Of a DNA stretch of 64,000 nt, positions 11,283 to 64,000 are shown piece by piece. Origin of the DNA: Salinimonas marina (GTDB taxonomy: Bacteria; Pseudomonadota; Gammaproteobacteria; Enterobacterales; Alteromonadaceae); contig NZ_CP064795.1 of NCBI RefSeq assembly GCF_015644725.1, positions 3,098,501 to 3,162,500 on the forward strand, read 5' to 3'. The notes under the pieces are model-generated. The model was not told the origin of the DNA. It searched no databases and saw only the letters and a list, made by a program, of their open reading frames with translations. The position numbers were made by a program, and so were the translations under genes. Position 1 is the stretch's first letter; each line of letters starts with the position of its first letter.

Positions 11283-13463
11283 ATGAAGTTAAATAGAGTA
11301 CTAAAGGTAGTGCCAGCATTGTCGCTACTCATTTGCAATGTAGCGCAAGCCAACGAAGGCATGTGGCAGCCCCATCAATTAGAGGATATCAGCAGCAAGC
11401 TTAAACAAGCAGGCTTAAAGCTAGATCCCGCTGACATGGCAAATCTCAATCAATTTCCAATGAACGCGATTATAAGCTTAGGCGGCTGTACTGCATCGTT
11501 TTTGTCTGACCAGGGCCTCGTGGTTACCAATCATCACTGTGCCTACGGGTCTATCCAATATAATTCATCGGAAGAAAATAACCTGATTGAGAAAGGTTTT
11601 GTTGCACCACAAAAAGACGCGGAATTACCTGCGGCGCCAGGCTCTCGGGTATATGTGACAGAATCGCTGACCAATGTCACCGACAAGATTACCGGAAGTA
11701 TTGATGCCTCTGTTGCGGGCGAAGCTTTTTACAACAAAATTGAAAACAATCAAAAAAAGCTGGTTGCCGAATGCGAAACCTCGCAGGACTACCGTTGTGA
11801 GGTTTATAGCTACCACGGGGGCGCAGAATATTTTCTGATTAAGCAATTAGCTATTCGCGATGTTCGACTGGTATACGCACCTTCGGCCAGCATTGGAAAA
11901 TTCGGTGGCGACACGGACAACTGGATGTGGCCGCGGCATACTGGTGACTGGGCGTTTTACCGTGCCTATGTCAACAAAGATGGCAAACCGGCAGACTATT
12001 CGAAGGATAATGTCCCGTTTGAGCCAGATGCCTTTTTAAAAGTAAACGCCAGTGGCGTAGCAAAGGATGACTACGTAATGGTGCTGGGCTATCCCGGACG
12101 CACCAATCGCTACCGCACCGCGCTGGAAGTAGAAAACCAGTTTACCTGGGTTTATCCAACAGCAAAGCAGTATCGTGAACAGTACATTGATGTCATAAAA
12201 CAAAACGCTCCGGCAGGCAGTGATGCACGCATCAAGTATGAAAGTACGCTGGCGGGTCTTGCGAACTACGCTAAAAACTATGGCTCCATGATTCAAAGCT
12301 ATAACCAGGGTGACATGCTGGCGCGCAAACAAAACGAACTGGAAGCTCTGCAAGCCTGGATCACCAGTTCTGATGCACGTAAAGCGAAATATGGTGAAGC
12401 ACTTGAAGACCTAAACACGCTTCTTGAAGGGGGCTACGAACATCAGCAGCGTGATTTGATCATGTCTTACATGGCCCGCACCAACATGATGAGTGTGGCA
12501 AAGCGCCTGTATCGTCTGGCGCATGAGAAAGCCAAGCCGGATGCCGAGCGCAAGCAAGGGTATCAGGAGCGCGATATGAATCGCTTCAGCCAGGGCATGA
12601 AGCGTGTGAATCGTCGCTATGACCCCACCGTCGACAAAGCGGTACTGGCACACTTTATTGAACACTATACATCGTTTCCTGATTCACAGCGTAATACCAC
12701 CTTCGATGCATTCTTCGGGCTGGATAACGGGTATGACGCCAGCGCAGTAAAAGCGCAACTGGATAGTATGCACAGTCAGACCGAACTGGATAACGAAGCG
12801 GTGCGCTTGGCCTGGATGGATAAACCGGTGGAAGCATTCAAAGCCAGTGATGATCCCTATATTCAGTTTGCAGTATCCCAGTACGATTATGATAAAGCAC
12901 TTGAAAAGCAGGAAGACAAATTATCAGGCGAGTTGCTACGGGCCCGGCCTGCGTTTATGGAAGCCATGATTGCGTTTAAACGCAGTAAAGGCGAGCCGGT
13001 GTATGCTGATGCCAACGGCTCTTTGCGCATTACCTATGGTAATGTAAAAGGGTATTCACCACAGGATGGCCTTGAAGCTAAACCATTTACCACCCTTGAG
13101 GGCATGCTGGCTAAGTATGTTGAAGGTGACGACGAATTCGACTTACCACAGAAGGTGCGGACCGCTATCGCCAATCAACAATATGGTGACTATGTTAATC
13201 CGCAGCTTGGCTCGGTCCCAGTAAACTACCTGTCTACCGTTGACATCACTGGCGGCAACTCAGGCTCACCAACCTTGAACGCCAAGGGGGAGTTTGTCGG
13301 CCTGGTTTTTGATACGGTGTATGAGGCAATTATTGCCGATTGGGACTACGATCCTAAGGTTAATCGCGCAATCCACACCAGCGTGCCGTTTATGCTTTGG
13401 ACCATGAAGCATATTGATGGTGCTGACAATATACTGGACGAAATGACTATCGTTGAAAAATAA
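11283..13463 (+). CDS. S46 family serine peptidase (dipeptidyl-peptidase 7/11-like)
   Basis: 726 aa, the usual S46 length, with signal peptide MKLNRVLKVVPALSLLICNVAQA. Catalytic elements are visible: VVTNHHCAYG (histidines at residues 84/85), GGDTDNWMWPRH (aspartates at 210/212) and GGNSGSP with the nucleophile Ser660. The protein also keeps the alpha-helical insertion typical of the family (about residues 280-560). S46 enzymes such as Porphyromonas DPP7 and DPP11 release dipeptides from oligopeptide N-termini in the periplasm. The residue that decides hydrophobic versus acidic specificity lies near VGLVFDTVYEAI, but I cannot assign specificity by eye. Own terminator at 13487-13514. Fits with the other peptidases in the window as a peptide-scavenging enzyme. 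Confidence 0.93.
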   Translation: MKLNRVLKVVPALSLLICNVAQANEGMWQPHQLEDISSKLKQAGLKLDPADMANLNQFPMNAIISLGGCTASFLSDQGLVVTNHHCAYGSIQYNSSEENNLIEKGFVAPQKDAELPAAPGSRVYVTESLTNVTDKITGSIDASVAGEAFYNKIENNQKKLVAECETSQDYRCEVYSYHGGAEYFLIKQLAIRDVRLVYAPSASIGKFGGDTDNWMWPRHTGDWAFYRAYVNKDGKPADYSKDNVPFEPDAFLKVNASGVAKDDYVMVLGYPGRTNRYRTALEVENQFTWVYPTAKQYREQYIDVIKQNAPAGSDARIKYESTLAGLANYAKNYGSMIQSYNQGDMLARKQNELEALQAWITSSDARKAKYGEALEDLNTLLEGGYEHQQRDLIMSYMARTNMMSVAKRLYRLAHEKAKPDAERKQGYQERDMNRFSQGMKRVNRRYDPTVDKAVLAHFIEHYTSFPDSQRNTTFDAFFGLDNGYDASAVKAQLDSMHSQTELDNEAVRLAWMDKPVEAFKASDDPYIQFAVSQYDYDKALEKQEDKLSGELLRARPAFMEAMIAFKRSKGEPVYADANGSLRITYGNVKGYSPQDGLEAKPFTTLEGMLAKYVEGDDEFDLPQKVRTAIANQQYGDYVNPQLGSVPVNYLSTVDITGGNSGSPTLNAKGEFVGLVFDTVYEAIIADWDYDPKVNRAIHTSVPFMLWTMKHIDGADNILDEMTIVEK

Positions 13464-13486
13464 AGACAGCTCCTAGGTCCGCAAAC

Positions 13487-13514
13487 GCAGCTCATCCCCC
13501 GGAGAGCTGCTTTT
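13487..13514 (+). terminator. Terminator of the S46 peptidase gene
   Basis: GCAGCTC (13487-13493) pairs with GAGCTGC (13504-13510) and is followed by TTTT. Confidence 0.6.
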
Positions 13515-13747
13515 CTTATCTCTGAGCTGATAAGGGTATGCTCGCCGAAATTCACAAAACCTGAACCTGACTCGGCGGCACAACGAGCGGCTATACAGAA
13601 CAAATTTAAGAATTTGATCGCCATACGGACCAATATTATTACCGGCTTTCTTGCCGCGAGAAAAACAGCGCGATCCTATCGTTTCTAGATTCCCGGCTGG
13701 CAGATGAGTGCTGGGCGGCATTAGTTAACGTCATAAACAGGACCATA

Positions 13748-13805
13748 AACAGGACAGGCACTTACCGTCTGTTAAATATAAGAAGTGACTGTCCTATTCA
13801 TTTCT
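13748..13805 (+). repeat. 58-bp REP-like dispersed repeat, copy A
   Basis: Base-for-base identical, by my reading, to 15834-15891 and in the same orientation. It contains an imperfect inverted repeat: AGGACAGGCACTT and AAGTGACTGTCCT pair at 12 of 13 positions around about 19 bases. That is the architecture of a REP/hairpin element mobilised by RAYT-type (Y1) transposases. No transposase gene is in the window. Confidence 0.75.
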
Positions 13806-13819
13806 TATCCATTTGTCAT

Positions 13820-13855
13820 AAAAAAGGCCGGCAGTGCATTACGCTCTGCCGACCC
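13820..13855 (-). terminator. Terminator of the DUF885 gene
   Basis: On the minus strand GGTCGGCAG pairs with CTGCCGGCC and is followed by six T, about 20 bases after the stop. Confidence 0.8.
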
Positions 13856-13871
13856 TTTTACACATCTCGGG

Positions 13872-15695
13872 TTAACCTTTCTCGCTAGCAATCCAGCGTT
13901 CTATTTTTTGTTCCAGTATTGGCAGGGGCAGCGCACCTGTGCCCAATACCTGTGCATGAAAAGCTTTAATATCAAAGTTTTCGCCCAGGGCCTCTTCGGC
14001 TTGTTGGCGTAGCTCCTGAATTTTCAGTGCGCCCACCTTATAGCCCAGCGCCTGTGATGGTATCGCAATATACCGCTCCACTTCCGCCACCACTTCGGTG
14101 CGGGTCATACCGGAGTTTTCCAGCATAAAGTCAATTGCCTGTTCCCGGCTCCAGCCCTTCGCGTGGATGCCAGTATCTACCACCAACCGCATGGCGCGTA
14201 ATTGTTCGTCTTGTAGGGTACCGTAGCGGTTCCAGGGGTCGTCAAAGAATCCCATTTCGTACCCCAGGGTTTCAGAATACAACGCCCACCCTTCAATATA
14301 GGCATTGTTGCCACCAAAACGCATGAATGCCGGCAGATCTTCGTTTTCCTGAGCCAGACTTAGTTGGAAATGATGCCCTGGCGCGCCTTCATGGAGGTAC
14401 AAGGTCACATTGCCAGTGGTTAGCCGGCTGGGTAAATCATAGGCATTGAAATAAAACGTGCCCGGGCGAGAACCATCGGGTGTGCCACGCTGGTACGAAC
14501 CGCCGGCACTGAATTGCTCGATAGCTGGATCATAGGGTTTAATTTCGAGCTCTGTTTTTGGCAACAATGAAAAATAGTCATCAATTTTCTTATCAACTTC
14601 CCGTCCAATACGGTAATACGACTCCGTTAACGCTTCACGACTTTGCGGCTTAAATTGGGGATCCGTTCGCACGTAATCAAAAAATTCATTGAGCGTGCCC
14701 TCAAACTCAACTTCTTCCATAATCTCATGCATGTCGGTTTTGATTCGCTTTACTTCCTGCATCCCTAAATCATGCAGATAATCTGCGCTCAGCGGCAAGG
14801 TAGTCGTTTTTTCAATCAGGTGACGGTATAGCTTCTCGCCGCCTTTCATCTGACTAAGTCCAATACTTTCTCTGGCCACAGGCAGGTATTCATCGCGCAG
14901 AAAGTTACGCATACGCTCAGTGGATGCGTATATCTCTTTGGTCGCTGCCATATACTCTTTAGTCAGACGGGTTTTGTCTTGTTCACTGAAGCTGTCAGGG
15001 AACATCGTGACTGGCCCCCAGAACTGCGACTCTTTGATGGGGATTGCCAGCTGGGTGTCAAACTGCTTAATGACCCTGTCTATCGTTAGCCTGGTTTCCA
15101 GTACACCCGTGTCCATGCCCTCACGAAATTTTTCGATGGCGCGCTCGCTGATGTCGATGTAATCCTGATGGCGCGAAAGGTTGTTTTCGTAATCTTCAAT
15201 GGTTTTAAATGGCGCCGCCCCTTTCCCGCTGGCAAAGGTAGGATAAAAAGTATGGAAGCCACTAAAATGATTCACCGGGCGCACTTCTGTCAATGCAAGT
15301 ATTTCATCGCTGGTAGCTTTCAGGCTCTTTTGCTGGTCGTATTCAAATACATCGTAGGCCAGCTTATCGGTGGCGCTTAGTTGTGAGCGATCTATTTTTG
15401 ACAGCTCAGACAGGTTCAGCAGCGTACTGGTGCGTGTCGCAATAGTATGGGCGTCGGTAATAAAGTCGCCCAGCCGGTCGGCGCGGCGCATATCGCCCCG
15501 GAACAATCCCGAAATCGGGTTCAGCGCCAGCTGGCGTTCATCGGCAGCAGCAAATAGTGTAAACAAGCGGTCATGCGCGCTTTGCTGTTGTCCGGCTACC
15601 TTGCTGGAAGTGTCAGATTGCGGCTGTGCGGTTACCGGCATGGCCAGCGCGGCAGCCACCGCGCCACTTATTACTAGTGTTCGAAATACACTCAC
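13872..15695 (-). CDS. DUF885 family secreted zinc-metallopeptidase-like protein
   Basis: 607 aa from a GTG at 15695 with GGGAGA seven bases upstream; an overlapping ATG is out of frame. Signal peptide: about residues 1-23 (SGAVAAALAMPVTA). The DUF885 C-terminal half holds LYLHEGAPGHHFQLSLA (HExxxGHH zinc motif), NAYIEGWALYSETLG (downstream glutamate) and YKVGALKIQELR. The family is annotated as metallopeptidase-like and is abundant in peptide-degrading marine and Xanthomonas-type bacteria; substrates are mostly unknown. The gene is flanked by two identical 58-bp REP-like repeats in the intergenic spaces on both sides. Its own terminator follows. Confidence 0.9.
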   Translation of the reverse strand: MSVFRTLVISGAVAAALAMPVTAQPQSDTSSKVAGQQQSAHDRLFTLFAAADERQLALNPISGLFRGDMRRADRLGDFITDAHTIATRTSTLLNLSELSKIDRSQLSATDKLAYDVFEYDQQKSLKATSDEILALTEVRPVNHFSGFHTFYPTFASGKGAAPFKTIEDYENNLSRHQDYIDISERAIEKFREGMDTGVLETRLTIDRVIKQFDTQLAIPIKESQFWGPVTMFPDSFSEQDKTRLTKEYMAATKEIYASTERMRNFLRDEYLPVARESIGLSQMKGGEKLYRHLIEKTTTLPLSADYLHDLGMQEVKRIKTDMHEIMEEVEFEGTLNEFFDYVRTDPQFKPQSREALTESYYRIGREVDKKIDDYFSLLPKTELEIKPYDPAIEQFSAGGSYQRGTPDGSRPGTFYFNAYDLPSRLTTGNVTLYLHEGAPGHHFQLSLAQENEDLPAFMRFGGNNAYIEGWALYSETLGYEMGFFDDPWNRYGTLQDEQLRAMRLVVDTGIHAKGWSREQAIDFMLENSGMTRTEVVAEVERYIAIPSQALGYKVGALKIQELRQQAEEALGENFDIKAFHAQVLGTGALPLPILEQKIERWIASEKG

Positions 15696-16005
15696 ATAAT
15701 TCTCCCTGAATTGTCAGATGGTTAATTGTTATTGTCTGCCAAAATGTAGCTTATTGAGTGACCAGCGTCGACGTGTTTTAAACCATGCTTGCAATAACTG
15801 TGTGAGAAATGCTGATGGCCCAGCAAGAGTAATAACAGGACAGGCACTTACCGTCTGTTAAATATAAGAAGTGACTGTCCTATTCATTTCTCTATTCATT
15901 TCTTGGCTTAGGCACAGATCCATTTTTTGTATTTGAAACTTAACGTGGTTTTTTTCTCGGCAGGCCAAAAGAAGAGATAAGCCCAAATGAATGAGCTTGG
16001 AATCA
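15696..16005. other. Intergenic region with REP-like element
   Basis: Upstream region of the DUF885 gene and downstream of the CEOS-like gene. Contains repeat copy B; small frames over 15858-16127 are shadows. Confidence 0.5.
15834..15891 (+). repeat. 58-bp REP-like dispersed repeat, copy B
   Basis: Identical to copy A (13748-13805). The last bases (CTATTCATTTCT) are followed at once by a second CTATTCATTTCT, a short direct duplication of the element end. Confidence 0.75.
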
Positions 16006-17147
16006 TCAAAGTGATAGGTGCGGGTAGGCCTGTTGGCGGTGTTGATAAGCCAGAATATCCGGCTTTTGGATAACACCTTTATCAATATTAATGGCCCGGC
16101 GTATGGTTTCATTTTGGTGCCATCCATCTGGTCCTGCGGCTATGGCCGGTAAATGGAACACCAATGCGGCGGAAATTGAACGAGAGGCGCTTTCCCATAA
16201 ATAACTGGGGGTATGATCAACAGCGTAGTAGTCCACTTTTTCGACCTGGAACATGGGATCTTTGAAAGTGGTGGGCCTGGCAAAATAAAAACCCATACCT
16301 TCGTCACAACTGACATCAATGATTAAGCAACCCGGTTTAAGACAGGCTTTTTCTTGTTCGGTGACAAAGTCGATAGGGTGATTGGGGTCTTGATAGATGC
16401 CATTGATAATAAGCCCCGATTCGCTGATTAAATCAGCCAATGGCCGTTCTGTGCCGTCATGCTCAACCACCATCATTCTGGCCTGATCAGCAGTGCCGGC
16501 TTTTAACCAAACATAATGACAATCAAGAATTTCTTCACGGACCTCATGGTCGGGTCGCTGAATGCAAATAGTGATATCGCGAAAGCCATGGGCTTTGAGA
16601 GCGTAAATAGCACCACGACTGACGGCACCAAAGCTGAAGATTATCGCTTTACGCTGATTACCATAATGCCCGTCTATACCCTTAAGCTGCAACGCATGAA
16701 TGACCCCGCAATATCCCGCCATTTCGTTGTTTTTGTAAAATGTATGGCGCCCCACCTGACCCTGAGGTCCCCAGACATACATATCCTCAAATGCGATTAA
16801 TGTCTGTTTTCGGTCAATGGCAATCTGAGTGATCTGTCGTTGCTGAGTGCAATGAGGATATCCCCAGAGCACACCGCCCACCCGTAACTGCTCAAAATCG
16901 GCAAGTACCGGTTTGGCAATAATGACAGTATTCATGGTTTCCAACAGCTCGTCTCTTGAGGCCAATCCCCCACCTGAGCGGCGAGTTCAGTATCATCAAT
17001 ACCAAAGCGTTCGCCATAGCCAGTTTCAAAAATGAGTTGCGTACGTATCTTTTCGGGGATCCTGGATAAATGTTCCGGATGTATCGGCACCCGCCGTTCA
17101 TCTTCCTTTTTAGAGCTACCAATAACGCCTAGTGAAGTCATATTCAT
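16006..17147 (-). CDS. N5-(carboxyethyl)ornithine synthase-like / alanine dehydrogenase-PNT family protein, frameshifted as read
   Basis: The restored gene starts at ATG 17147 (MNMTSLGVIGSSKKEDERRVP, with AAGG upstream) and runs to 16006, about 380 aa. The frame breaks at a C5 run (16967-16971, plus strand); one more base gives AAQVGGLASRDELLETMNTV, matching the family. The AlaDH/PNT N-domain is followed by the Rossmann domain (AIIFSFGAVSRGAIYALKAHG). CEOS-like features are AFEDMYVWGPQGQ, NNEMAGYCGVIHALQL, IIDVSCDEGMGFYFARPTTF and YAVDHTPSYLWESASRSIS. Known CEOS (Lactococcus ceo) reductively condenses pyruvate with ornithine or lysine using NADPH. That activity is plausible here but unproven; a saccharopine- or opine-dehydrogenase-type reaction is the alternative. 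Confidence 0.8.
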
Positions 17148-17768
17148 GGTATTGCCTTGTGCTTGAGCGTTTGAACCAACAGGGGTTGGCAATCCATACT
17201 GCAAGCGAGAGTGAAGTGTGCAGGTATACTAAGATGGAGAATAAGTGTTGACTGTTAATGCGAGGAGCCTGAAGCCTGCTTAACCTAAAGCCAGACCTGA
17301 AGCTTAACATGGTTCGCCTTTTATATCCGGATATTAACAGCCAAAGTATCAGGCTTCACACCAGGCTCGAGGGCTACGCCAGCTTCATCAGCAGCTTGCA
17401 GATAATATAACAGCTCCATCCTGTGAAAACCCTGCTAAAGTTCAGTCTCATCGAAGGCGTCATGCAGGCTACTGCCTTTACCACTACATTGTTTGAAGGT
17501 TTGAACGGGATATATGGCACGCGATAAATCCTTTGTCTATTTCCCTTGGTCAGAAAAGCAGGCATATGCTCCGGCCACACTTTTCTTGCGCTTATTGCCC
17601 AGAGCAGACCTCAAAACTTGATACGATTGTAATATGAAGGCTGGCCTGACCCAGTTAATAAAGGTCAGATGCAATTGATGGGGCCTCCAGACACCAGCTT
17701 CAATTGCAGCATACGAATAAAAAAGCCGCGTATAACCACGGCTTTTTGTAGCTATTTGTATTGATACC
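17148..17768. other. Intergenic region, possible decayed coding fragment
   Basis: About 620 bases. On the minus strand, around 17300-17480, one frame reads GKGSSLHDAFDETEL, stop, then MELLYYLQAADEAGVALEPG. This looks like the end of a disabled gene, but I cannot name it. The 68-aa frame at 17374-17580 overlaps it in another frame. The right end holds the terminator of the TonB2 operon. Confidence 0.4.
17719..17747. terminator. Terminator of the TonB2 operon
   Basis: AAAAAGCCG pairs with CGGCTTTTT around a short loop, with T and A runs on both sides, 20 bases after the TPR gene stop. Confidence 0.8.
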
Positions 17769-58334: not shown

Positions 58335-58371
58335 GGCAGGAAGGCACGGGCCTACCTGCCTTGTCAGTTTT
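58335..58371 (+). terminator. Terminator after tpm
   Basis: GGCAGG-A-AGGC pairs with GCCT-A-CCTGCC around a four-base loop, followed by TTGTCAGTTTT, between convergent tpm and yaeQ. Confidence 0.65.
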
Positions 58372-58918
58372 ATAAATGCTGTTGAATGTTTACTTCTATA
58401 CATTCGCTGTTCTCAGCGCTTTCGATGGTTAACCAGATTTGGCCGTCCTGAATCGTGACCTGAATTTGCATCGAACGCCCTACTGCGTTAGCGAGTGTAG
58501 CCGATAGCGATTCTGGTAAGGTAAACACCGACAGATTTTTCTTAGTCTGTAATTTATTTTGTTCCTTTTTCCACCACACGTCAAAGCTTCTGTCGGCATA
58601 GGAGTAAATCATCATCTGCTGACTTTGATTACAGCCCTTTTTGATACGTTGCTCAGAAGGTTGGCCTAACTCAAGCCATAGTTCGATTTCGTCGCTGAAA
58701 CTTTTTTGCCACAAATCCGGCACTTCGTCATCAGATAAGCCTTTGGTGAACTGTAATTGCTCGTGGGCATTGACGATAAACGCAACAATCCGCAGCATCA
58801 TCCGCGCGTCATTTTCAGAAGGATGCCGCGCAATTGTTAAGTTGTGATCATGGTAGTAATTGCGGTCCATATCGGTGATGGAAATATCCGCTTTAAAGAT
58901 GGTTGCTTTAAGAGCCAT
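58370..58918 (-). CDS. yaeQ: YaeQ family protein
   Basis: 182 aa, the YaeQ length, with conserved opening MALKATIFKADISITDMDRNYYHDH, HPSENDARMMLRIVAFIV, DDEVPDLWQKSFSDEIELWLELGQPSEQRIKKG and RSFDVWWKKEQNKL. YaeQ has a PD-(D/E)XK nuclease-like fold; the ExK remnants here are E-L-W-L-E-L-G and D-V-W-W. Its cellular role is not settled. This chromosomal gene marks the distal (left) end of the integron cassette array. Confidence 0.93.
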   Translation of the reverse strand: MALKATIFKADISITDMDRNYYHDHNLTIARHPSENDARMMLRIVAFIVNAHEQLQFTKGLSDDEVPDLWQKSFSDEIELWLELGQPSEQRIKKGCNQSQQMMIYSYADRSFDVWWKKEQNKLQTKKNLSVFTLPESLSATLANAVGRSMQIQVTIQDGQIWLTIESAENSECIEVNIQQHL

Positions 58919-59222
58919 GTAAATCCTGCATAATCTGCTAAGGCAAACAGTACTGTGCCTGATGGCGACATTAGGTAATGTTACCGAAGATAACGTTGTA
59001 TTGCAGCGTATGGTATCAATTAATCGGCCTCTGCGCTCTGCCTCATAAACCTCAGGAAAATGCTGCCTATCGCCCGATAAGTGCAGGCAATTTGGTGATG
59101 GGTGGTATGTGTGTCAGAAAGTATGATTGTGGAAGTGAGCAAAATGCAACTGATTGACCACTACAGAAGCCGCCCTACGTGTATGTGTCCCAGCGAACGA
59201 AGTGAGTGACTTAATTTTTTTG
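58919..59222. other. Boundary region between yaeQ and the first integron cassette
   Basis: Upstream region of yaeQ and the outermost attC. No ORF is supported. The right 60 bases are attC sequence; the left 70 are the yaeQ promoter area. The middle is unexplained and might be a disrupted attC or a lost cassette. Confidence 0.45.
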
Positions 59223-59228
59223 TTATAT
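58988..59228 (-). repeat. Outermost attC site, left half disrupted
   Basis: The inverse core GTTATAT is at 59222-59228 and the adjoining GCGAACGAAGTGAGTGACTTAA resembles other sites in the array. The matching left half is not visible nearby; the best core candidate (AGATAAC, 58988-58994) would make the site about 240 bases long. Confidence 0.45.
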
Positions 59229-59513
59229 GCCATCGTTTGATACTTCCACAAAAAAACCACTAACCTTTTGACCTTTAACTCTTGCGCACCACCGTTTATA
59301 AAATGGATACGCTACTAAGGCCATCATAACGCCATTTACAACCGAAATTGCCGGTGTCGCTATCACTGAAATTAAATCTACAATGGTCGGCTCGCCAAAA
59401 AGCGCAATAATAAAAATAAGAACTCCAAATACTAACCCACCTATAAAGTTGATAGTTGCAGATATTTTTATGAGTGATTTTAAACTGAGTTGAGTGTGAA
59501 AAATTCTAGCCAT
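59223..59513 (-). CDS. Cassette protein 1: small two-helix membrane protein
   Basis: 96 aa starting at ATG 59513 (MARIFHTQLSLKSLIKISAT). Two hydrophobic segments (about 18-40 and 45-70: INFIGGLVFGVLIFIIALFG and ISVIATPAISVVNGVMMALV), then a basic stretch (YKRWCARVKGQK). The TAA stop lies inside the attC core. I do not recognise the family. Cassette genes of this size encoding membrane proteins are common in Vibrio and Alteromonadales integrons; function unknown. Confidence 0.7.
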   Translation of the reverse strand: MARIFHTQLSLKSLIKISATINFIGGLVFGVLIFIIALFGEPTIVDLISVIATPAISVVNGVMMALVAYPFYKRWCARVKGQKVSGFFVEVSNDGI

Positions 59514-59534
59514 AGGTTTCTGGTCCTAAGTGGC

Positions 59535-59654
59535 ACATAACGCCGCGCTCTGCGGTAAATTTGGAGCGCAGGCATGTGGGCTAAAATACGAACGAAGTGA
59601 GCAGCCCACATGTTTGCGTCCCAGCCCGCGCAGCGGGCGAACTTAATTTTTTTT
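59535..59654 (-). repeat. attC site between cassettes 1 and 2 (inverse core missing)
   Basis: Core ACATAAC at 59535-59541. Long pairing arms GAGCGCAGGCATGTGGGCT and GCCCACATGTTTGCGTCCC are clear. After AACTTAATTTT the expected GTTAT core is absent, so the right end is eroded. Confidence 0.75.
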
Positions 59655-59666
59655 CCAGCACACTTT

Positions 59667-60104
59667 CTACTGCCGCCATAACTTTACTGTGCCCAATAAA
59701 TAAAACGTACCATAAATACAGCATATAATTGAGCTTACTAACCAAAAGGTTATTGAATTTTGGTGTACCACAGGGTCTGAAGTTAGAAAGGGACCAACTA
59801 AGCCTGCGATACCACGCAACAAATAGATGGCAGTAATTAAAGCTAAACAGGTTTTTAGTAGTGGTAATTTGATGATGATACCTGCACCAGAAAAAGCATA
59901 TAAGCCCCAGCCAGTAAGAATTGAAGCAATTACCAAAGTTGCAATTGCGGGGTAAGGGTCGCCCTGGGCAGCGAGTTGAGCCATGCGTTGACCAGCACCA
60001 AAAAAGAGATACCAGTCAGGGCCGCCGAAAATACAACTAATGTGAAGTAGTGCAGCCAAGATGCTTAAACTGCCAGCGATTATTAGTTGATTATTCTTGT
60101 GCAT
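59667..60104 (-). CDS. Cassette protein 2: four-helix membrane protein
   Basis: 145 aa from ATG 60104 (MHKNNQLIIAGSLSILAAL). Four hydrophobic segments: about 8-27, 52-75, 80-100 and 117-140. Small glycine- and alanine-rich helices with WYLFFGAGQRMAQLA after the first. Resembles small integral membrane proteins found widely as single genes; no catalytic motif seen. Its stop lies near the eroded end of the preceding attC. Function unknown. Confidence 0.7.
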   Translation of the reverse strand: MHKNNQLIIAGSLSILAALLHISCIFGGPDWYLFFGAGQRMAQLAAQGDPYPAIATLVIASILTGWGLYAFSGAGIIIKLPLLKTCLALITAIYLLRGIAGLVGPFLTSDPVVHQNSITFWLVSSIICCIYGTFYLLGTVKLWRQ

Positions 60105-60120
60105 TCAAATTCCTTTTGGC

Positions 60121-60220
60121 ACATAACGCCCTGTTAACAGGCTAAATATTGTTGGCTAAAATTAGCGAAGAAGGAGCCAATGCCAAGAGTATTTTGTACT
60201 TGTATAACAGATTGTTAGCT
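60121..60220 (-). repeat. attC site between cassettes 2 and 3
   Basis: Core ACATAAC (60121-60127) to inverse core GTTAGCT (60214-60220), 100 bases. CTGTTA/TAACAG boxes and GGCTAAAATTAGC-type central pairing are visible. The stop of cassette gene 3 (60215-60217) lies in the inverse core. Confidence 0.85.
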
Positions 60221-61213
60221 GCTGTTGTAATGGTTTGAAAGACCAAATAGCCACTTTTCTATTTTGCTGGCGTCTTTTTGACTGAAAACCATTAGGCTTG
60301 AATGTGCTCGATTTTCAAATATTAGCTTTGTTAACTGCTTATTGTTGACCGACGAAAAGTAACTTGGCGGTGAAATTGAGTCGACATTCGAATTTATTAA
60401 CAATGCTGGTTTACTGCTTTCAATTAAATTTATTAATAAATCCGTTTCTTCTAAAGTAACTGATGCTTCATTCATTGTATGGGTAACAATATCATCTACT
60501 CTATCAGAAAATAAACTGCTCAGTTTGGGAGCCTTATTTGGTAAATACTCTTTTGCGGCAATGTCGAATCTCATCATAGGAGCTAGTAAAATAGCTGCAT
60601 CTACATATTCAGATGATATTAAGTTGCTTGCCGTTAGAGTTCCCATTGAGTGCCCAACAACAACTGATAATTCTTTGTCACCTTTTTTATTTGCTAATTG
60701 ACTGAGCAGTTGAGAAAGCACCCGATGTTCTTTAGAACCGAAAGCAAACTTTTCTTGTGATTCGCCATGACCAAATAAATCAGGGATGATCACTTTCATG
60801 CCGAGCGCCCTAAAATAAATAGCAGTAGCTATCATAACTTCCTTTTTGCCGCCATATCCATGCAACAATAGAGCTGTCCCCTTGAAACGATTAAATGTAT
60901 CAGGAGTCATTGTGTGAGATACCGTATTCTCTACTCCATTACCTACTGCGTGGAGGTTGTAATAAACAGAACTACCCACAGGAAAGTTTTCAGAAAGGTA
61001 AGGGGGTGCTGCAAGATATTGGATACACTCCTTTGAATTATGTGAACAGAATTCATGTTTTGTGAAACCAATTTCTTCAGGTTTAGCTTTGATAAATTCT
61101 GCCTCTGATAGATAAACATCAGGATTAGATATTATGTAGCTTCCAATTGAAGTACAGCCCGATAAGAACTGAGCGAAAATAATTAGGAAAACTAGTTTAA
61201 TTTTGTTGTTCAT
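60215..61213 (-). CDS. Cassette protein 3: alpha/beta-hydrolase lipoprotein
   Basis: 332 aa from ATG 61213. Lipoprotein signal MNNKIKLVFLIIFAQFLSGC, lipidated cysteine at residue 20. Alpha/beta-hydrolase features: oxyanion region LLLHGYGGKKEV, IPDLFGHGESQEKF, the nucleophile elbow VVGHSMGTLTA with Ser189, and late ENRAHSSLMVFS with the probable catalytic histidine. Substrate unknown. Large for a cassette gene. A+T-rich compared with the neighbouring chromosome, consistent with foreign origin. Located between two attC sites, so mobile as a unit. Confidence 0.82.
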   Translation of the reverse strand: MNNKIKLVFLIIFAQFLSGCTSIGSYIISNPDVYLSEAEFIKAKPEEIGFTKHEFCSHNSKECIQYLAAPPYLSENFPVGSSVYYNLHAVGNGVENTVSHTMTPDTFNRFKGTALLLHGYGGKKEVMIATAIYFRALGMKVIIPDLFGHGESQEKFAFGSKEHRVLSQLLSQLANKKGDKELSVVVGHSMGTLTASNLISSEYVDAAILLAPMMRFDIAAKEYLPNKAPKLSSLFSDRVDDIVTHTMNEASVTLEETDLLINLIESSKPALLINSNVDSISPPSYFSSVNNKQLTKLIFENRAHSSLMVFSQKDASKIEKWLFGLSNHYNSS

Positions 61214-61257
61214 CTTTACTACAGTACTTTAAGTTACTCACGGAACTCTGCTTTGGC

Positions 61258-61347
61258 AGCTAACGCTTACAATAACGGGAAAAGCTGAGCGACAGCGAGG
61301 CTTTTTCCCAATGAGTGAAACGAACGTGGCTTATTGTTTTGTTATGT
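61258..61347 (-). repeat. attC site between cassettes 3 and 4
   Basis: Core AGCTAAC (61258-61264) to GTTATGT (61341-61347), 90 bases, with pairing GGGAAAAGC and GCTTTTTCCC in the centre. The stop of cassette gene 4 (61342-61344) lies inside the inverse core. Confidence 0.85.
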
Positions 61348-61905
61348 TTCGTGGTTGATTGCTCCTGCAATTTTCAAAACCCTCCTCGCAAGAGATTGGG
61401 CACTTTTAAGGTCTGCTCCATCCACAACTCCATCGGTGCTGCACGCAGTTACACCAACCTGACAGCCTAACCGATTAATTCCTTCACTTGAATTATTGTA
61501 AGGTGTATCTAAACCGACCCACACCATACCATGCTGACTTGCTAGTACCGTTAAATAGTGAAGAGTTGATGACTGATCACCGTTTAAACCAGTGCCTGAA
61601 GTGATCCCAGCAGCAATCTTATCTGCCCATTTTTGATTTGACCAGAAGTCACTTGTTGCATCTGCGAAAGCTTTGAATTGTGCCGCTACGCCACCCATGT
61701 AAGTTGGTGAGCCAAAAATGATGGCGCGGCATTCGTGTAAATTTTTGAACAATTGGTTGTTTATGAAACGACCTTTGATAATTTCTTCACCAGATATCTT
61801 GTAGTCAACTACATTGGCATTACCCGCCAATAGTTCAGCTTTTACTGCTGACATCAATCTTCCAGTTACATCTGTGTTAGAGAAATAGACTAGCCCTATC
61901 TTCAT
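61342..61905 (-). CDS. Cassette protein 4: flavodoxin-like NAD(P)H oxidoreductase family
   Basis: 187 aa from ATG 61905 (MKIGLVYFSNTDVTGRLMSAV). Flavodoxin fold: N-terminal phosphate-binding loop VYFSNTDVTGRL, then AIIFGSPTYMGGVAAQFKAFADATSDFW (the typical GSPTYMG flavin-contact segment of WrbA-type proteins) and ITSGTGLNGDQSSTL. C-terminal part VGLDTPYNNSSEGINRLG also fits the family. Probably binds FMN and reduces a small substrate such as a quinone; substrate unknown. Confidence 0.85.
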   Translation of the reverse strand: MKIGLVYFSNTDVTGRLMSAVKAELLAGNANVVDYKISGEEIIKGRFINNQLFKNLHECRAIIFGSPTYMGGVAAQFKAFADATSDFWSNQKWADKIAAGITSGTGLNGDQSSTLHYLTVLASQHGMVWVGLDTPYNNSSEGINRLGCQVGVTACSTDGVVDGADLKSAQSLARRVLKIAGAINHET

Positions 61906-61935
61906 AATTCATTTAGTCCATCAAACTGGAAAGAA

Positions 61936-62016
61936 ACATAACGCCTGAGCTTACCGGCATATTTTGAGTTGCCGCAGGCAACGAAAAATATGTCCGAGTA
62001 CAGCGATTTGTTAGGC
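61936..62016 (-). repeat. attC site between cassettes 4 and 5
   Basis: Core ACATAAC (61936-61942) to GTTAGGC (62010-62016), 81 bases, with pairing GGCATATTTTGAGTTGCCG / CGGCAAC-like arms. Confidence 0.8.
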
Positions 62017-62147
62017 GGCAGTCCTCCACGACCCCTGGAGCTCTCCCGAAACTGCCGACGCGGACGTATTGTTCTGCCACCGTACCCTCGTCATCAACTG
62101 TGTCCAGCGCTGTGCGATGCGTGGCATCTGTTCGGAGGCTGTGTACG

Positions 62148-62153
62148 TATAAT
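62148..62153 (+). promoter_or_regulatory. Possible -10 element of the inverted MAPEG cassette
   Basis: A perfect TATAAT 30 bases before the MAPEG start; the -35 region is weak. A cassette gene facing the array promoter needs its own promoter, so the position is meaningful. Confidence 0.4.
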
Positions 62154-62182
62154 AAATGCAATTTAAAATACTAGGAAAGATT

Positions 62183-62587
62183 ATGACCGGATTCATTGCA
62201 GTGGTGCTTTACGTCGTATGGATACAACTTCTCGCGCTGTCTTACGCATTCCCTCGCGTGCCAATGGCGCTTTTCGGAGGCCGCAAGTTCTCAGACTGGG
62301 AACGCGCTGAGGTCAACCGCGACCCGGCCTTCATGGTTCGCGCCAAGGGCGCGCACCTGAACTGCGTGGAAAACTTTCCGCTTTTCGCAGGCGTAGTGGT
62401 GGTTGCCGCGCTCATGGGCAAGAGCCCCGTGGTAGATAGTCTTGCGATGTTCATCCTGCTTGCGCGCGTGGGGCAGAGCCTGTCACATCTCATAAGCACT
62501 GCCCCGGCGTTTGTGCTATCACGTGCTACGTTCTTCCTTGCCCAGGTCGGCATGATTTTCTGGATTTGCTTTCAGCTCATCGTCTGA
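62183..62587 (+). CDS. Cassette protein 5: MAPEG family membrane protein (inverted orientation)
   Basis: 134 aa from ATG 62183 with AGGAAAG upstream; the frame from 62156 adds nine residues and is less likely. Four membrane helices. The MAPEG signature region is DWERAEVNRDPAFMVRAKGAHLNCVENFPLFAG, matching the RAxxAHxNxxExxPxF pattern, followed by AMFILLARVGQSLSHL. MAPEG proteins include glutathione transferases and eicosanoid enzymes; bacterial members often have unknown substrates. The gene lies opposite to all other cassette genes. G+C content is higher than in its cassette neighbours, so its source probably differs. Confidence 0.88.
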   Translation: MTGFIAVVLYVVWIQLLALSYAFPRVPMALFGGRKFSDWERAEVNRDPAFMVRAKGAHLNCVENFPLFAGVVVVAALMGKSPVVDSLAMFILLARVGQSLSHLISTAPAFVLSRATFFLAQVGMIFWICFQLIV

Positions 62588-62614
62588 CTTTGCCCCTGGA
62601 TGGGGGCGCCCGAT
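62183..62614 (+). other. Cassette 5 body around the inverted MAPEG gene
   Basis: The only cassette whose gene reads to the right (toward the presumed integrase). The CDS itself is 62183-62587 and is listed separately; the bases after the stop run to the next attC at 62651 without another gene. Confidence 0.4.
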
Positions 62615-62650
62615 ACAGGACATCCCGTGATAATAGGGCCGAACCCGGCC

Positions 62651-62758
62651 GCCTAACACCCACATAAGGGGCAGTAATGCGTGGGCTAAAATTTGAAGCG
62701 TAGCGACAGAACCCACGTGTTACTGTCCCAGCGAAGCGCCTTAATGTGATTGTTATAC
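62651..62758 (-). repeat. attC site between cassettes 5 and 6
   Basis: Core GCCTAAC (62651-62657) to GTTATAC (62752-62758), 108 bases, with long arms GGGGCAGTAATGCGTGGG and CCCACGTGTTACTGTCCC. Confidence 0.88.
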
Positions 62759-62765
62759 GCAAAAG

Positions 62766-63140
62766 CTAAAGGGCACGAAAAACAGCCTTTATTTGCTCAT
62801 TTGATAACGGACCATACTTATCCTCACACATAAAGCAGAAATGAGCACCAGCTGATTTACCAAGCTCTTGAAATAACCTCAACTCGGACGTTGTATAGCC
62901 ACCCTCAAAAGTTGGAATTAAATGGATAAGAAAAACTGGCTTATAAATTTTATGAATTAGTTGGCAATGCTTACTCACTACCTGCTTCAGAGAGATTTTT
63001 AATGCCCTCCAATCACCGAGCAATGTTCGTGAGTTTGATAATTCATTGCACAAAGTAATTTCTTCGTGCTCATCACCAAATATTCGGCTCACAAATCGGT
63101 CTTGATAAACTTTAATGTAAATTTTTCTACGAAACTTCAT
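62766..63140 (-). CDS. Cassette protein 6: short MreB/actin-fold-like protein
   Basis: 124 aa from ATG 63140 (MKFRRKIYIKVYQDRFVSRI); the frame from 63170 would start inside the attC site. The body NSRTLLGDWRALKISLKQVV and HLIPTFEGGYTTSELRLFQELGKSAGA resembles the part of MreB-like proteins around TEVExRAxxEAAxxAGA. Only a fragment of an actin fold would fit in 124 residues, so a full MreB function is unlikely. Similar short 'rod shape-determining-like' proteins are known from gammaproteobacterial genomes. Assignment is tentative. Confidence 0.55.
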   Translation of the reverse strand: MKFRRKIYIKVYQDRFVSRIFGDEHEEITLCNELSNSRTLLGDWRALKISLKQVVSKHCQLIHKIYKPVFLIHLIPTFEGGYTTSELRLFQELGKSAGAHFCFMCEDKYGPLSNEQIKAVFRAL

Positions 63141-63146
63141 CTTTGC

Positions 63147-63251
63147 GAATAACGCTTTGCCAATGGGCAAATGCGAACGTTGTTGGGCGAAGCCCAGTGA
63201 GTAGTTGTCCCAGCCGCGCTTTTTGCGGCGATATTAGGCAACTTGTTATAT
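63147..63251 (-). repeat. attC site between cassettes 6 and 7
   Basis: Core GAATAAC (63147-63153) to GTTATAT (63245-63251), 105 bases, with arms GGGCGAAGCCC and GCCGCGCTTTTTGCGGC visible in the centre. Confidence 0.8.
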
Positions 63252-63255
63252 AACA

Positions 63256-63540
63256 CTACGGCCACTGAACTTGCCCCATTAGGTCTTTGTATGATGCTAA
63301 AGCGCACCATATCGAAACCGCTAAATCCTGTTTCCTAATTAGAACTTGATATAGAAACACTGGTAACAACCACAGCAATAATATTGCCACTTGAACGAAA
63401 ATTGCAACGATAACAAATTCTCGTTCACCACCCAAAGCTAGAAGCGCCACAAAAACATTTAGGATCAAGAGCACCCAGATAGCTTTCTTTGCATCCGATT
63501 TTATAATTGTGATTGATTCAGATGGTTCTTCGTTGCGCAC
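63256..63540 (-). CDS. Cassette protein 7: two-helix membrane protein
   Basis: 94 aa from a GTG at 63540 preceded by AGGGAATCAA; the ATG at 63570 lies within the neighbouring attC core and is unlikely. Two membrane segments (about 23-40 AIWVLLILNVFVALLAL and 45-68 VIVAIFVQVAILLLWLLPVF), with a polar N-terminal NEEPSESITIIKSDAKK. Family not recognised. Confidence 0.65.
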   Translation of the reverse strand: MRNEEPSESITIIKSDAKKAIWVLLILNVFVALLALGGEREFVIVAIFVQVAILLLWLLPVFLYQVLIRKQDLAVSIWCALASYKDLMGQVQWP

Positions 63541-63555
63541 TTGATTCCCTGTGTT

Positions 63556-63643
63556 ATATAACACCCGCATTTGGGGCCGAAGTGAAGCTCAGCTGAACGG
63601 AGGTCCCAGCCCCGCAGGGGCGAACAACATGCGCTTGTTAGGT
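63556..63643 (-). repeat. attC site between cassettes 7 and 8
   Basis: Core ATATAAC (63556-63562) to GTTAGGT (63637-63643), 88 bases, with GCCCCGCAGGGGC pairing. Confidence 0.85.
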
Positions 63644-63649
63644 GTGGTG

Positions 63650-63967
63650 CTACCATGGGCGAACACCCTTTTTAGCAGGACTCACGCCACCTGTTTCTAG
63701 ATTTACGATGAAATCCAAACCAATCCAGTTTCCAGCTATAAGTTGGCCATCTTTTACATGAATATCCATGTAAGCTTTATCCTCATTTGGAGCACCCGCT
63801 GGACACTCTTGGATTACCCAGGCAAGTTTGCCATCTGTTTTATAAGCCTCGATATTTCTATTTAGTTTCTCACGAGGATAATTTGCAAGTACATTATCGG
63901 AAGGATAACGCCTGATTATTTCCAGGCCTTCAATTTCAATTTTCTGTTTGATATTGCCGCTATCCAT
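63650..63967 (-). CDS. Cassette protein 8: unknown small soluble protein
   Basis: 105 aa from ATG 63967 (MDSGNIKQKIEIEGLEIIR); the longer frame from 63982 starts in the next attC core. No signal peptide or membrane helix. Segments KLAWVIQECPAGAPNEDKAYMDIHVKDGQLIAGNWIGLDFIVN and GGVSPAKKG suggest a compact beta-rich fold. I do not recognise it. Confidence 0.65.
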   Translation of the reverse strand: MDSGNIKQKIEIEGLEIIRRYPSDNVLANYPREKLNRNIEAYKTDGKLAWVIQECPAGAPNEDKAYMDIHVKDGQLIAGNWIGLDFIVNLETGGVSPAKKGVRPW

Positions 63968-63973
63968 GAGTAC

Positions 63974-64000
63974 ACCTAACATCTTATTATGTAGACCTCA
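63974..64000 (-). repeat. attC site upstream of cassette 8 (cut by window edge)
   Basis: Core ACCTAAC at 63974-63980 marks the start of the next attC, which continues outside the window. Confidence 0.6.

Follow-up and report, generated by a model that had tools for sequence, protein, structure and literature searches.

An integron gene-cassette array occupies the right end of the 64-kb stretch of Salinimonas marina DNA analysed here (the window, C1:3098501-3162500 of genome G000, a single contig of 3,765,169 bases). We find that this array belongs to a degraded integron rather than forming the distal end of a live integron; it corresponds to what IntegronFinder terms a CALIN, a cluster of attC sites lacking integron-integrase (PMC9024848). 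Because an attI-type site (attI-B) heads the array at 63980 and a decayed stump of its integrase gene (intI-B) lies past the window edge, the block very probably represents in full the cassette array of a second integron in this chromosome, here called type B, whose integrase has been lost. The origin of a CALIN thus appears to be readable from the DNA at this locus.

We located attC sites with a covariance model (R1) trained on 16 hand-picked attC sites from arrays beside intI in seven relatives; only relatives' arrays were used, and the window's sites were kept out of training, because circularity had to be avoided. Earlier scans based on strict complementarity or folding symmetry overlooked true sites or reported spurious ones, and were dropped for all purposes except the hand selection of relatives' sites. 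Folded with RNAalifold, R1 gives the expected bulged hairpin; of its 24 pairs, 15 show two-sided changes. The model matches the window exactly eight times at E<=10, always on the minus strand and within 59152-63643; seven reach E<=7.4e-6, and the eighth (59152-59228) is a half site that lacks its 3' half (22 bits, E=0.0026). Pairing, covariation and a single orientation are all present at the right end of the window, where the original prediction had read eight short genes separated by attC-type palindromes, and seven of the eight genes do face left, the gene for a MAPEG protein being the one that faces right. Cassette junctions were placed at AAC on the plus strand, which is G|TT on the minus strand. 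Across the whole genome R1 lists 17 attC sites, which fall into five clusters. Those at 1145 kb and 1521-1522 kb have two sites each and that at 1299-1302 kb has four; two more sites adjoin an intact intI, and the fifth cluster comprises seven of the window's eight (61936-62016 is absent from that listing). R1 sites occur in all 59 genomes of the genus, with 7 to at least 63 per genome.

Several lines of evidence indicate that the head of the array lies at the window's right edge. The attI-B core spans 28 bp on the minus strand (63980-64007, the last 7 bp falling past the edge), ends at G|TT and has no mismatch to the site upstream of an uninterrupted intI-B gene in the relative G012; it is by homology to that site that we predict it to be an attI. 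The array starts at 63980, 21 bp inside the window, so that an attI to the right, which had been anticipated, is found, and the view of the block as the distal end of a larger array is not borne out. Through attI, leader and first codons, the region right of the array is 74% identical over 608 bp to the uninterrupted G012 locus. The intI-B stump lies 342-587 bp past the window edge (L007:7342-7587) and retains ~83 of 319 codons, interrupted by indels and in-frame stops; tblastn with IntI-B matches it at 45% identity across 84 residues (E=5.8e-16 when searched against this stretch, 6.9e-13 against a larger set), and a search of L007:7342-7587 with the resident integrase type, IntI-A, gave no match. 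The integrase expected beyond the right edge was thus placed on the correct side, but all that is found there is a 5' remnant, and no functional intI adjoins the array. As to a Pc promoter that would drive the cassettes, a sigma-70 scan of the leader region (L007:6900-7700) gave 0 matches, against a mean of 2.2 in shuffled sequence.

A single integron integrase in this genome scores over the TIGR02249 cut-off (1776421-1777368, 464 bits). It lies 1.38 Mb from the eight attC sites of the window, is of type IntI-A, and belongs to another IntI lineage. Its own cassettes are two, one encoding a 181-amino-acid protein and the other a YefM-YoeB pair. Of 58 relatives, 55 have an integron integrase (E<=1e-60). 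We use the name IntI-B for the integrase beside an attI-B site; in five genomes (G012, G009, G048, G038 and G018) attI-B lies ~350-450 bp upstream of a full-length second integrase gene, which in G009 bears a stop, and the four uninterrupted copies form one clade (support 100/100) well apart from the resident IntI-A in a tree of 43 rows. The ancestral state would have been attI-B, a ~350-bp leader in which palindromic boxes recur at intervals, and an intI-B gene transcribed divergently. The gene would then have been severed after ~83 codons and its remainder would have decayed by indels and in-frame stops, leaving attI-B and eight cassettes, the distal attC truncated against the flank that carries yaeQ. 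The attC sites, attI-B, the stump, the host flanks and the intact type-A integrase elsewhere are demonstrated at the level of sequence; from these we infer that IntI-B filled the array while it was alive and that the attC sites of the window may still be substrates of the resident IntI-A in trans.

Genomic sites at which cassettes integrate outside a classical integron are named attG, and the resident IntI-A might have inserted cassettes at such a site, building a remote array where there never was a second integron. The remoteness of the sole intact integrase is in keeping with this, as are two cassettes near the distal end of the array. Cassette 7 is 89.7% identical in nucleotides, over 580 aligned bases of a 597-bp query, to a cassette ~10 kb from intI-A in G052, and cassette 8 is 90.9% identical, over 374 aligned bases of a 401-bp query, to one beside the IntI-A gene of G032. 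For comparison, the median nucleotide identity of yaeQ across 36 loci from other genomes, which are not specifically G052 and G032, is 78%. Since ~90% exceeds that level, cassettes have probably moved between species, be it before or after the loss of the integrase. An attG origin shares with our locus the presence of cassettes outside a classical integron. However, this array is headed not by a random G|TT but by a site with homology to an attI that belongs to a known integrase type, complete with its leader and an intI-B stump; the stump largely refutes the attG explanation, which we regard as very improbable.

We asked how the attI-B core compares with the DNA around it. Within this genome attI-B occurs in only two places, the window array and the head of the 1521-kb cluster; the 1145-kb and 1299-kb clusters have none at their heads. 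Between the two cores 2 of 28 positions differ, whereas the adjoining 330 bp are 0.47 identical (shuffled sequence, 0.40 and 0.44). Against G012 the window locus has 0 of 28 differences in the core and 0.70 identity in the adjoining sequence. This pattern suggests that the core is under constraint, although the comparison of core with leader is prone to ascertainment bias, as most loci were found through the core itself; the two of this genome were found through their array heads. The attI-B leader also bears palindromic boxes, GTTACTNAGANNTCTNAGTAAC, with a first spacing of ~116 bp and then ~94 bp. Leaders with such boxes are L007:6986-7311, L167, L193, L175, L184, L186, L171 and L144:8740-8969, and none was found in L188. 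At up to two mismatches in five genomes, all eight places with the box fall in attI-B leaders, in three genomes, while the reversed control hits one place (in G000). The boxes are possible candidates for integrase or regulator sites.

Orphan attI-like sites prove to be common. A pattern search of the 59 genus genomes at up to three mismatches, which decayed sites escape, found 43 attI-B sites in 26 genomes, and the reversed pattern found none in 59. Only five of the 43 lie near a full-length IntI-B gene; none is listed near the other 38, some of which are close to contig ends (G037:C2:486 has <500 bp on the integrase side). In 32 aligned sites, positions upstream of the searched pattern carry 0.59-0.68 bits each; on the downstream side the four bases that follow carry 0.83 bits per position and those after them 0.19, so that conservation stops at the cassette junction G|TT. 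Thirty loci were examined individually. An attC lies on the same strand within 1.5 kb downstream in 20 of them, against a rough chance rate of 1.35% per random point that is itself a generous upper bound, and two of the ten loci without attC have <310 bp of downstream DNA. IntI-B stumps accompany the site at L193, L171 and L174, the match at L174 spanning just 21 residues, and beyond these thirty loci they occur at L161 and L007; L179 has a distant integrase match only (28%).

A variant that we call B2, chosen by eye from the thirty, consists of ~75 bp, namely the core and ~50 bp of conserved upstream sequence with little conservation beyond. It is found beside different host genes at 14 loci in 13 genomes (L166, L169, L170, L173, L176-L178, L180-L182, L190-L192 and L194). 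No two of these share an upstream flank of at least 400 bp (L191 has <500 bp there), none has an IntI-A or IntI-B match within the available locus DNA, and nine have an attC within 1.5 kb downstream. Judged against the open-licence literature, the family of orphan attI-like sites looks new. It is possible that the resident IntI-A uses these sites in trans. We tentatively put forward, as a possibility that falls short of an even chance, a distributed integron in which cassettes would be loaded in trans by a single resident integrase at several scattered orphan attI-like sites, both remnants of type-B integrons and a dispersed ~75-bp docking element; continued use would preserve the cores of these sites once their own integrase is gone. 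With this family one could test directly whether arrays that lack an integrase are fossils or are still loaded in trans.

These sites bear on another explanation for the window array, in which attI-B and the 5' end of intI-B were duplicated onto this spot and seeded a new docking site, so that a full integron never stood here. Besides the abundance of orphan attI-like sites, truncated pairs of attI-B and intI-B stump in the second copy of G012 (L193), in G031 and at two G053 loci (one of the latter a 21-residue match only) speak for such duplication and so count against a complete integron at this place. Deletion of the 3' part in place is nevertheless the simplest reading of a stump that lies beside its attI, and no second breakpoint was identified on the stump side; we consider the duplication unlikely.

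The flanks of the array can be compared with the locus of Alteromonas lipotrueiana that has the same flanking genes (L015). On the left, yaeQ and its upstream region (58370-59139, minus strand; YaeQ 241 bits) are host DNA and not cassette. The array does adjoin yaeQ as first noted, but its left edge had been drawn at 58988; since homology to L015 reaches 59139, the segment 58988-59139 is host flank, and the last attC ends without its 3' half. On the aldolase side homology resumes at L007:7571 (window-equivalent 64571). The cassette content of the two genomes differs at this locus, and with attC-model matches in the window and an integron integrase in the genome, the findings named in advance as refuting the original prediction are all contradicted. 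Several observations weigh against the loss of a type-B integrase from a complete integron at this locus. The aldolase-yaeQ interval of L015 holds no trace of IntI-B, and its best match to attI-B (16/28) is not significant, being equalled by 272 of 1500 random segments; the idea that A. lipotrueiana retains a decayed attI-B here was rejected. Yet flank homology to L015 begins almost at the base where the stump ends, which would be compatible with more than one order of deletions. Finally, IntI-B is recognised by its nearness to the site, and the second integrases of other genomes (e.g., G039 and G004) fall outside this typing.

The gene for a class II aldolase (L007:7676-8470) and yaeQ lie side by side both here and in A. 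lipotrueiana/G053; in none of the other genomes compared were the two found within 190 kb of each other on a single contig. The array coincides with a rearrangement breakpoint. One large integron might have been split by chromosomal rearrangement, in which case this block would be a piece of the type-A array. Where aldolase and intI share one large contig, the distance between them is 117-132 kb in nine relatives, with yaeQ elsewhere, which indicates that the joining of aldolase and yaeQ took place in this lineage; the exceptions are G037, where the distance is 195 kb, and G009, where aldolase and intI are far apart. Yet the block has its own attI and an integrase stump from another IntI clade, and we judge a split type-A array to be extremely improbable. 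No host flank is shared among the attC clusters of this genome, as judged from open reading frames (ORFs) in stretches of 10-20 kb, which most arrays outrun.

The type-B array resembles known CALINs in having at least two attC sites and no intact integrase nearby. In complete bacterial genomes 2961 CALINs compare with 2760 complete integrons, and their origin from degraded integrons is put forward in that source only as a proposal (PMC9024848). At this locus the origin is visible, as attI and the stump of the lost integrase are retained while a different, intact integrase lies elsewhere in the chromosome. Lopez-Perez et al. (2014) described attC in all Alteromonas genomes studied at two further regions that are integrase-less and expressed, a third region being absent in A. 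australica H17 (PMC4119200). Those attC arrays without integrase are in the same genus, and the window locus is possibly one of the two; the main text of that paper uses 'attI' three times, never of the integrase-less regions, and 'pseudogene' nowhere. Cassettes have been described as independently regulated (PMC4223743). Nemergut et al. (2008) reported that nearly one third of intI genes are pseudogenes and that more than one fifth of integron-bearing lineages have more than one intI (PMC2426708). The pseudogene here differs from the cases in that report in being a short stump that coexists with an intact integrase of another clade.

The cassettes are given from head to tail, all on the minus strand. 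Cassette 1 (63562-63979; attC 63556-63643, 35.9 bits) encodes a soluble protein of 105 amino acids from the second ATG (63964), the start favoured by homologues; an alternative 110-residue form (ORF 63650-63982) would draw its ATG from attI. Of its 14 homologues, 13 carry a precomputed PF25857 label, a family that our own Pfam search did not reproduce. Cassette 2 (63153-63561; gene 63256-63570; attC 63147-63251, 37.3 bits) encodes a small membrane protein of 104 amino acids, the membrane call being by eye. Cassette 3 (62657-63152; gene 62766-63143; attC 62651-62758) encodes a YjaA-like protein of ~125 amino acids with five homologues found. As to the suggestion of a short MreB-like protein, membership of the MreB sequence family found no support (no Pfam match at E<=0.1, and PDB sequence matches at E<=1 that include no MreB), while structure prediction points to a possible one-lobed MreB/actin half-fold; the view from sequence searches that 'MreB-like' is wrong was dropped once the fold search was run.

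Pfam matches agree with the hydrolase, flavodoxin-like and MAPEG products proposed for the next three cassettes. Cassette 4 (61942-62656; attC 61936-62016, 30.7 bits) carries the MAPEG gene (56 bits) at 62183-62587 on the plus strand, against the array, with a GC content of 0.57 compared with 0.36-0.43 in the other seven cassette genes. The FMN_red/WrbA-like flavodoxin of cassette 5 (61264-61941; gene 61342-61905; FMN_red 49 bits; attC 61258-61347, 33.2 bits) is 63% identical in amino acids to a protein in a remote stretch of G024. Cassette 6 (60127-61263; gene 60215-61213; Hydrolase_4 46 bits; attC 60121-60220, 48.5 bits) encodes an alpha/beta-hydrolase, called a lipoprotein by eye from its N-terminus. 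Membrane proteins of 145 and 96 amino acids are encoded by cassette 7 (59541-60126; gene 59667-60104; attC 59554-59652, 47.1 bits, with a degenerate R'') and cassette 8 (59168-59540; gene 59223-59513), which ends in the truncated attC; its similarity to the G032 cassette extends down to ~59168.

YaeQ itself is 91% identical to that of A. lipotrueiana, and the next-best records are mostly Alteromonas. A record titled Pseudomonas saliphila (L031) has a YaeQ 84% identical, with an integrase-like match (35% identity) upstream, and may represent a transfer or a mislabelled contig. The 1145-kb attC cluster (L142:7488-10401) adjoins a 424-amino-acid ORF that by eye resembles a phage-type integrase, in an apparent genomic island. 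The resident type-A integron (~1771-1785 kb; L012:4273-9224 and 12260-17557) is flanked, according to PADLOC, by a CBASS operon (SAVED-PDDEXK effector, cyclase, E1-E2 and JAB) and by the Shango-like genes SngA, SngB and SngC.

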